64,000 nt of DNA from Halorubrum trapanicum (GTDB lineage: Archaea; Halobacteriota; Halobacteria; Halobacteriales; Haloferacaceae): NCBI RefSeq assembly GCF_002355655.1, contig NZ_AP017569.1:434001-498000 (forward strand). The letters run 5' to 3'. Below are positions 8,196-59,084 of this stretch, piece by piece. Below the pieces are notes generated by a model. The model ran no database searches, had not been told where the DNA came from, and worked only from the letters and a program-made list of their open reading frames with translations. The position numbers and the translations under genes were made by a program. Each line of letters begins with the position of its first letter. Position 1 is the stretch's first letter.

Positions 8196-8630
8196 CTTAT
8201 AAACATCGGCTTACAGAGCGACGCGCTGCGGCGACGCGTCGCGGCGGCGCGCCCCGGTGAGCGGCCGTCAGGCCGTGAACCGACGGTGCGAGGGAGTCGC
8301 TGGCGGCGCCAGCCGCCAGCGACGAGGCTGGGGAGGCGTGAGGTGCTGTGCGGTGCGGGGCGGGACTCAAAGGGGCAGTCGCGGGGCGGACGCAGGCGTT
8401 TACGAGAGCGAAGCTCTCGTGAGCCAATCAGAACGCTTCGCGTTCTGATGACGACGTAAGCACCGCAGGAGCGAGTGAAACGAGCGACGAGGAGCGTGGT
8501 TCGAGAGAGCGGAGCTCTCTCGTCATCCCGAAAATCGGAGATTTTCGGGCGACAGCGAGCGTGCGCCCGCCTCGCGGCTGGGGCTTTGGCGGTGTTCGTT
8601 GTCCGCCCTCACTTGATCGCTTATAAATAA
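8196..8630 (-). repeat. Structured intergenic repeat, copy A
   Basis: This fills most of the gap between gfcR and the glutaredoxin gene; no credible protein gene is present. It lies between CTTATAAA (8196) and TTATAAAT (8621-8628). Helices, listed in the minus-strand sense used for all copies, are: I, 8562-8580 with 8376-8394 (17 of 19 pairs); II, 8312-8322 with 8297-8307 (11 of 11); III, 8271-8275 with 8262-8266. The loop of helix I holds four further perfect hairpins with 3-nt loops (8402-8420, 8427-8449, 8502-8522, 8527-8549). Conserved unpaired blocks contain CTTTGAG and CCTCCCCAGCCTCG. The assigned strand is an inference from the TATA box position. Confidence 0.8.
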
Positions 8631-12989: not shown

Positions 12990-13368
12990 TTTATAAATAA
13001 CCGAGACGGTGCGGCGGCGCGCGCCGGTGAGCGGCCGACAGGCCGCGAACCGCACGCGCGAGGGAGTCGGGCGCGACGAGGGCGATCGAAGAGAGCCCGA
13101 AGACGCGCCCGACGAGGCTGGGGAGGTGTGAGGTGCGGTTGCGGTGCTGGGCGGGATTCAAAGGGGCAGTCGCGAGGACGAAGACGCGTGACGCAAGGAC
13201 CGCAAGGAGGGAGCGTTAGCGACCGACTGAGGACCGTAGCGAGCGCATCGAGTCCTCGCGACTGGGGCTTTGGCGGTGTTCGCCGCCGATCAACTAGCAG
13301 TTATTTATAAGCGAGCGGCTGGGGCTTTGGCGGTGTTCGCTGTCGATCCGCAGTCAGCTATTTATAAA
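12990..13368 (-). repeat. Structured intergenic repeat, copy B
   Basis: This occupies the gap between the divergent CitE and MaoC genes; no protein gene is credible. It has the same architecture as copy A, in the same orientation: helix I 13252-13264 with 13167-13179 (13 of 13), helix II 13104-13112 with 13067-13075 (9 of 9, a sequence unlike the other copies), helix III 13041-13046 with 13031-13036. The end near 13261 carries an extra direct copy of the module GGGGCTTTGGCGGTGTTCGC plus a TTTATAA box (boxes at 13304-13310 and 13361-13367). MaoC expression starts just beyond this end. Confidence 0.8.
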
Positions 13369-13457
13369 CGAGCGGCTGAACGCCGGACGGAATCACCACG
13401 AACGACACCCCGATAAAGAGCGGTACCGATTTCACGTCACCGAGTGACCGGGAAACC

Positions 13458-20796: not shown

Positions 20797-21283
20797 AGCA
20801 CAGAGGTAGCGGCGAGTGATAACGGGAGTGAGTGTTGTACGTCGTGAGTGAGGCCGTTTATAAGGGGAGTTGGAGTGTTGTTGTCGGCTATTTATAAGTG
20901 ACTGACGCTGCTGCGGTGAGTACCTCCAAAGCCCCAGTCGCGAGGCGGACGCACGCTCGCTGTGCTCCTCGCTCAGTCGCTGGCGCTCCTTCGCTGCGGT
21001 GCTTACGTCGCCTGCGTCCGCCTCGCGACTGCCCCTTTGAGTCCCGCCCCAGACAGCCCCGCACGGCACCTCACACCTCCCCAGCCTCGCCGCTCACGCC
21101 CTGCGGGCGTTCGCGGCGTCCCTCGCGGGCTGGCTCGCGGCCGCCAATGGCGGCCGCTCGCAGGCGCGCCGACCGCAGCCTGATTTATAAGCGATCGTCG
21201 GCATCGCTCTCGGTCATTTAAATACTACCTCGCGGCCGCCGATCTGCGATACCCACTCCCGCTACCGATCGGGAAGCAGCATC
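20797..21283 (+). repeat. Structured intergenic repeat, copy C (long form)
   Basis: This fills the gap between the converging dph2 and 21372-21587 genes; no protein gene is credible. Helix I is 20935-20953 with 21013-21031, 19 of 19 pairs. Helix II is 21088-21093 with 21113-21118, extended inside by ACGCCC/GGGCGT. Helix III is 21137-21145 with 21149-21157 (9 pairs, AAT loop). TTTATAA boxes are at 20860, 20891 and 21184, and ATTTAAATA at 21216-21224. The outer ends carry an imperfect inverted repeat, CGGGAGTGAGT (20823) and ACCCACTCCCG (21251). The ends also match copy D. Confidence 0.85.
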
Positions 21284-42935: not shown

Positions 42936-43351
42936 TCTCGTGCTGATGTCGACTGTTTATAAGTGATTTACGCTGCCGGAATGACGAGCTCCAAAGCCCC
43001 AGTCGCGACGGCTCGCGCGCCTTGTTGTGCTCCTCGCTCGGTCGCTGTCGCTCCCTCGCTGCGGTGCTTGCTGCGGCGTGCTTCGCCCTCGCGACTGCCC
43101 CTTTGAGTCCCGCCCCGCCCCGCACGGCACCGCACCTCACGCCTCCCCAACCTCGTCAGTCGCCTCCGCTTCGCTCCGGCGACTGACTCCCTCGCGGGCT
43201 GGCTCGCGGCCGCCGGTGGCGGCCGCTCGCAGGCGCGCCGACCGCAGCCGAATTTATAAGCGATCCTCGGCATCGCTCTCGGTTATTTAAATACGATATC
43301 ACGGCCGGCGTTCTGCGATACCCACTCCCGCTACCGATCGAGAAGCACCAT

Positions 43352-58607: not shown

Positions 58608-59084
58608 TTTATAACCAGACTCTCGGTTCCGTTGCCGGCCGTTTATAAGTGATAGACGAAGCGGTGAATGCCTCCAAAGCCCCAGCCACTCGTTTATAAC
58701 TGAGTCACCTTGGATCGGCGGTGAACGCCTCCAAAGCCCCAGTCGCGAGGACTCGCGCGGCTCGGTGCGCTCCTCGCTCGTTCGCTCCGCTCACTCGCTG
58801 CGGTGCTTCCGTCGCCGTGCTTCGTCCTCGCGACTGCCCCTTTGAGTCCCACCCCGCACCGCTCCGCACAGCACCTCACGCCTCCCCAGCCTCGTCGGTC
58901 GCCCTCCGCTTCGCTCCGGACGACCGACTCCCTCGCACCGGCGTCGCCGGCGCTACGCGCCGGCTGCCAGAGGGACCTTCGGTCCCTCGCGGTTCGCGGC
59001 CGCCGGTGGCGGCCGCTCACCGGGGCGCGCCACCGCACCGCTCTTTATAAGTAATCGCCGTCGTCGCTCGTGATCATTTAAATA
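58608..59084 (+). repeat. Structured intergenic repeat, copy E
   Basis: This fills the gap between the converging gdhB and DUF2071-type genes; no protein gene is credible. Helix I is 58740-58752 with 58824-58836 (13 of 13), helix II 58894-58901 with 58921-58928 (8 of 8), helix III 58996-59004 with 59008-59016 (loop GGT). Two further perfect hairpins with 3-nt loops are at 58946-58964 and 58970-58988. The leading module, TATA box plus CCTCCAAAGCCCCAG, is present twice (58642 and 58692). TTTATAA at 59044 and ATTTAAATA at 59076-59084 close the element. Confidence 0.82.

Follow-up and report, generated by a model that had tools for sequence, protein, structure and literature searches.

The four perfect hairpins crowded into copy A of a repeat in the genome of Halorubrum trapanicum make up two insertion-like double-hairpin units, a reading that is well supported by comparison with other copies of the same repeat. 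As to how such units come to be there, we lean slightly towards mobility at the level of DNA, with further spread by gene conversion between the repeat copies that host them. Present in some copies and species and absent from others, twin-hairpin units of this kind seem to rank among the smallest mobile DNA known in archaea. If the reading is right, archaeal chromosomes would join the places where tiny double-hairpin units move, and these units would be linked to a known physical motif, the GNA mini-hairpin. They would also offer a natural system, with many filled and empty sites, for the long-open question of how hairpin units that carry no protein spread. The analysis further brings out the host itself, a structured repeat distributed across Halobacteria that is absent from Rfam and of which many Halorubrum genomes hold 100-150 copies or more.

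Hairpin pairs in the window and their enrichment

Copies of the host repeat in the window, by which we mean the whole 64-kb stretch of DNA analysed, were located with a profile of the repeat core. Copy A (8245..8600, plus strand; nhmmer match) carries both of its units in the P3 arm, and all four hairpins that a sequence-only reading had pointed out there were recovered. Unit 1 (8399..8453, plus strand, 55 bp) reads ttt-ACGAGAGC-GAA-GCTCTCGT-gagcca-ATCAGAACGC-TTC-GCGTTCTGAT-gacg. Its first hairpin (8402..8420, plus strand) has a stem of 8 bp and a GAA loop, its second (8427..8449, plus strand) a stem of 10 bp and a TTC loop that is GAA on the other strand, and the exact empty site, CGCAGGCG joined directly to ACGTAAGC, occurs in 22 other copies. 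Unit 2 (8497..8552, plus strand, 56 bp) reads tggtt-CGAGAGAGC-GGA-GCTCTCTCG-tcat-CCCGAAAATC-GGA-GATTTTCGGG-cga, with hairpins of 9 bp (8502..8522) and 10 bp (8527..8549), both on the plus strand and both with a GGA loop; its exact empty site, GAGGAGCG joined to CAGCGAGC, is found in 36 other copies. The predicted DNA folds have energies of -18.4 kcal/mol (z -5.2) for unit 1 and -19.3 kcal/mol (z -5.5) for unit 2, and as single-stranded DNA the units of the window are predicted to form the two-hairpin fold on either strand (z about -5 to -6).

Copy E (58719..59021, minus strand) holds one unit at 58941..58988 (minus strand), GAGGGACC-GAA-GGTCCCTC-tggca-GCCGGCGC-GTA-GCGCCGGC-gacgc, whose ends are uncertain by a few nucleotides and whose empty site is present in one other copy; the two hairpins claimed earlier for this copy, at 58946-58964 and 58970-58988, were both found. 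Copies B (13015..13285, plus strand), C (20914..21169, minus strand) and D (42981..43238, minus strand) are without a unit. The same three-nucleotide-loop build had also been ascribed to helix III (P1a) of copies C, D and E. It is indeed present in D (43206-43226) and E (58996-59016), whereas copy C reads GCGGCCGCC-ATT-GGCGGCCGC, in which the A and T are able to pair too, and helix III turned out to belong to the element's own structure and not to be a gained unit.

When a 3-nt loop and arms of 8 bp or longer were required, the window yielded 11 perfect palindromes, compared with 2.6-4.4 in Markov controls, and four of the 11 are packed within 150 bp. A larger sample of 864 kb combined the window with C1:500001-1300000 of the same Halorubrum genome (G000, 3.08 Mb). 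Here the elements, 22 kb in all, hold 44 perfect palindromes that have a 3-nt loop and arms no shorter than 9 bp (19.8 per 10 kb), and the remaining 842 kb hold 21 (0.25 per 10 kb); a Markov-4 control gave 0.19 per 10 kb. The count against controls proposed by the sequence-only reading, which would have given up the idea had random or coding DNA been equally dense in such palindromes, accordingly returned an enrichment of about 80-fold inside the repeat and chance level outside. Chance and base composition are ruled out as the source of the hairpins by the Markov controls, and a general, genome-wide tendency to form palindromes is rejected because the density outside the elements equals the Markov level. 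Among loop sizes from 0 to 14 scanned in the 864 kb, none but 3 was comparably enriched; the 7.2 per 10 kb at loop size 13 corresponds to the element's own helix P2.

The 3-nt loop is closed by a C-G pair in 280 of 286 hairpins (98%), while C holds this place in 137 of 318 palindromes outside the repeat. Of 186 unit loops, 164 (88%) read GNA or its complement, against 39 of 318 loops (12%) outside. On the element strand the unit loops comprise 91 GNA, 73 TNC and 22 others, and this near balance indicates that both strands are used and that the preference is not strand-bound; in the units' own frame TNC outnumbers GNA (77 vs 40), and strand use is not perfectly even. A GNA turn closed by C-G, as in d(GCGNAGC), forms an extraordinarily stable DNA mini-hairpin (Hirao 1994 and Yoshizawa 1997, via PMC4686876). 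The units share the C-GNA-G turn with these mini-hairpins, which the literature searched treats as a motif of physical chemistry and a tool for aptamers; no account of them as the hallmark of a genomic element was found.

Types, positions and confinement of the units

The earlier claim that small palindromic units were gained inside the element was borne out as regards the gain, by empty sites, presence and absence at orthologous loci and one clear nested insertion, but not as regards the unit. A single hairpin had to be dropped as the unit because the hairpins come in twos; what is gained is a hairpin pair with short flanks, about 45-60 bp in all, with perfect stems of 7-10 bp, 3-nt loops and a linker of mostly 4-6 nt. 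We counted 93 such pairs, carried by 71 of 257 distinct host copies, a set that is partly biased in that 120 stretches were retrieved by exact core sequence. In 1.66 Mb of long stretches from three genomes, 30 pairs lay within 58 kb of element DNA and none in the 1.6 Mb outside the host repeat.

The commonest type has the form TC-HPA-TGCCA-HPB-GCTG after a G, or its reverse complement, with HPA usually built on the words GCCGGCGC, GCCGGCGGC, GCCGGAC, ACCGGAC or ACCGGGC and HPB on GAGGGACC, GAGAATC, GAGGCGC, CGTGGCGC or GCGAGAGC. Across all perfect stems there are 38 different words, and the feet are TC.../...CTG and others. The main (GCCGG/GAGGGACC) type was found in forward orientation at core positions of about 12, 56 and 154 and in reverse orientation at about 43-47, 90 and 181. 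At one locus (L063) a unit is nested within another, in its TG^CCA linker, and two further loci (L067, L107) look similar. Copy A's units represent two additional types, located at core positions 170 and 219, and at position 219 the two hairpins mix freely from a few words. Because these two types have linkers of their own, we only infer that they share descent with the GCCGG/GAGGGACC type, and with it that all unit types are of one descent. Most units sit at a few recurrent core positions (56, 90, 154, 170, 181 and 219), which is what the spread of one old insertion by gene conversion would give.

The pattern GAGGGACCnnnGGTCCCTC was present in 13 of 14 Halorubrum genomes sampled, with no match to the reversed-pattern control in any of those, and among the sampled genomes outside Halorubrum it appeared only now and then; a search with GCCGGCGnnnCGCCGGC had the wrong spacing and was uninformative. 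A set of 2.9 million viral contigs gave 31 exact matches to a 15-base pattern, which may be due to chance, and plasmids gave partial matches only, all on haloarchaeal replicons.

The host repeat and a possible role in RNA

The host repeat has a core of about 270 nt with helices P1, P1a, P2 and P3. Extrapolation from 62 matches in the 864 kb gives about 220 copies for the genome studied, and a covariance-model search found at least 150. In a sample spanning Halobacteria, the P3 model had matches in 115 of 145 genomes, representing 47 of 58 genera; in genera other than Halorubrum the host often consists of nothing but a P3 arm, and some of these arms form head-to-head pairs. Inverted head-to-head P3 arms about 30-350 bp apart were seen at L313 and at further loci of genomes G128, G215 and G217. 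Above the gathering score, Rfam models matched only tRNAs in the window, the best sub-threshold match to copy B having an E-value of 0.78, and we found no description of the host repeat in the literature on haloarchaeal repeat families, MITEs and its core sequence. Judged by the covariation of its sequences, the host is a previously undescribed element of predicted structure that extends across Halobacteria.

This covariation bears on an alternative in which the units are optional domains at the periphery of a structured RNA. The host would be transcribed, the hairpin pairs would be expansion segments in its loops, tolerated or useful, their stems would be kept perfect by selection on the RNA fold, and gene conversion of the entire repeat would be their sole means of movement. 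Double changes were found in 18 of 32 P3 pairs, with a covariation score of 0.375 against 0.141 in shuffled alignments (0 of 500) and below 0.06 in slid controls. Moreover, when P3 is read on the strand of copy A, G-U pairs are commoner than A-C pairs (92 vs 18), an excess that points to this strand as the folded one, TATA-like boxes lie upstream of the host repeat, and most units occupy its loops or junctions. Yet one unit type occurs in both orientations, and GNA and its complement are nearly balanced on the presumed RNA strand, neither of which a function of the RNA strand would predict, and some units lie inside helices P1 and P3. On this evidence we consider the RNA-domain explanation unlikely, while giving it real weight. 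With respect to a terminator or promoter role, host orientation relative to genes showed no bias among 30 classifiable copies, a weak test given that 63 were unclear. If host copies were the ends of a transposon or MITE, a transposase gene would be expected between paired ones; inspection by eye of three pairs of close inverted host copies revealed ordinary metabolic genes or no clear gene between them.

Several other features of the host were observed. Downstream of the core in most copies, as at 13258-13371 in the window, comes a tandem array of units (GCGGCTGGGGCTTTGGCGGTGTTCG...TTTATAAGCGA), each about 57 bp long with TTTATAA at its end, and the number of these units varies. Some copies (L137:1625-1734; C1:758061 of the genome studied) have the inner part of the P3 arm in inverted orientation, as if it had flipped between the stem arms, which parallels the occurrence of loops in both orientations. 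The apical part of P3 (alignment A2, columns 40-87) forms a ladder of 2-bp steps and mostly symmetric GA/GA internal loops with a small end loop, and it looks like tandem sheared G-A pairs. A module of about 80 nt (GTTCCCGCGAGCGAAGCGAGCGGGAGCACGGAAGTCGCAG...GGAACGTCTTCCGG) is optional at the same place in C1:579247, C1:794405 and their G022 orthologues, and in another genome (G015) the site of copy A holds a truncated host (L158) that keeps P1 and P2 and is missing P3.

Gain and spread of the units

Empty sites were identified by joining the flanks of each pair, with ends at most 6 nt from the hairpins, and searching other copies for the exact 16-nt junction. Such sites were found for 71 of the 93 pairs, compared with 111 of 1234 random excisions (9%). 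The comparison of orthologous sites that the sequence-only reading had suggested was made between species (G000, G010 and G022). One 56-bp unit is present in the sister species G022 (G022_370911) and absent from C1:770371 of the genome studied (OC_270371), where the flanks are near-identical and P3 identity is 0.99; presence and absence differ at other loci too, and the unit of copy E is missing from its G010 orthologue. At single sites the difference may reflect loss instead of gain. No target-site duplication that defines the unit ends was found, and several ends are ambiguous by 1-5 nt.

In these three genomes nearly all testable host copies lie at the same loci, with flanks 84-100% identical. 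Mean P3 identity is nevertheless 0.88 between orthologous copies against 0.86 between random paralogues in one genome, and every tested copy has a close paralogue (P3 identity 0.91-0.99), as expected from ectopic gene conversion. Many unit gains probably go back to gene conversion with another host copy as the source and are not fresh insertions.

An improbable explanation is that the palindromes were made on the spot when replication forks switched template, and were perfected there by strand switches inside quasi-palindromes, with no unit inserted. Such local birth would account for the excess of perfect stems over stems with one mismatch (221 vs 13) and for loops in both orientations, which template switching or spacer inversion would give. 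However, identical stem words, linkers and exact junctions turn up repeatedly, whether at one site or at several, whereas stems born independently would be unrelated; the empty sites are exact, and no palindrome enrichment was seen elsewhere in the genome (864 kb).

Movement of the units themselves as DNA is the best, though not the sole, reading of these sequence comparisons. It is favoured by the occurrence of units at several sites, in both orientations and once nested in another unit, and caution is advised by the few recurrent positions, the lack of target duplication and the lack of an enzyme tied to the units. Under our preferred explanation of mobile units further spread by gene conversion, the host repeat would become single-stranded and one strand of each hairpin would fold as a very stable C-GNA-G mini-hairpin. 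The unit might then insert beside a G, with no evident target duplication, through some recombinase or through strand switching, after which ectopic gene conversion among the 150-220 host copies would spread it; stem perfection and loop flipping could be upheld by arm-to-arm copying or spacer inversion. More tentatively, the units may represent a new class of minimal mobile DNA, namely GNA-turn double hairpins of 45-60 bp that insert after a G in either orientation, even into each other, only within the host repeat and via a single-stranded DNA step.

In REP sequences both the stems and the GTAG/CGTC feet are conserved; they lie scattered and have a dedicated RAYT. REP, BIME and REPIN resemble the units in being high-copy short palindromes with a doublet as the unit (PMC3116915, PMC2817692, PMC3733652). 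That the units are REPIN-like doublets moved by a Y1 (RAYT-type) transposase, as their short conserved single-stranded flanks and the presence of a Y1 gene in all six Halorubrum genomes tested might suggest, is very improbable, since unit stems are variable (38 words, with no conserved stem and GTAG/CGTC foot), the units are locked to one host repeat and not scattered intergenically, and Y1 genes are few, while G038, with two of these genes, has 10 host copies but no GAGGGACC hairpin. Y1_Tnp (PF01797) genes number 1-4 per genome, mostly as open frames of 126-140 aa; the genome studied has a single Y1 transposase, and no enzyme could be tied to the units.

A close likeness is to the double-hairpin elements (DHE) of fungal mitochondrial DNA, reported from Allomyces by Paquin, Laforest and Lang (2000), which are said to be mobile on the basis of comparison. 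Like DHE, as these are reportedly built, the units are tiny, consist of two adjacent hairpins with variable stems (93 pairs), and are optional between relatives at otherwise identical sites, mobility again being inferred by comparison. They differ in residing in an archaeal chromosome, locked in one structured host repeat and not spread over many unrelated sites (0 pairs in 1.6 Mb outside the host), and in having C-G-closed GNA triloops and a recurrent stem vocabulary. We therefore call the units DHE-like by their features and claim no common descent with the mitochondrial elements. DHE of fungal mitochondrial DNA are cited in PMC2670323, which describes short palindromic repeats in Volvox organelle DNA that occur in both orientations, have loops of 3-5 nt in the plastid and are thought to be selfish. 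The units share with them the short hairpins in both orientations, but the Volvox repeats make up the bulk of the noncoding DNA, with a common sequence motif in most of those from the plastid (PMC2670323), whereas the units are confined to one repeat family.

Units of another design were found at two loci (L342, L350) of genome G215, which belongs to another family, so double-hairpin units are not peculiar to Halorubrum. A second double-hairpin design with the linker ACCCTC was observed in two families, with differing stems, at L350:287-340 (G215) and L329 (G128), where it sits in a conserved GGGACTGA/AAGGGG stretch.
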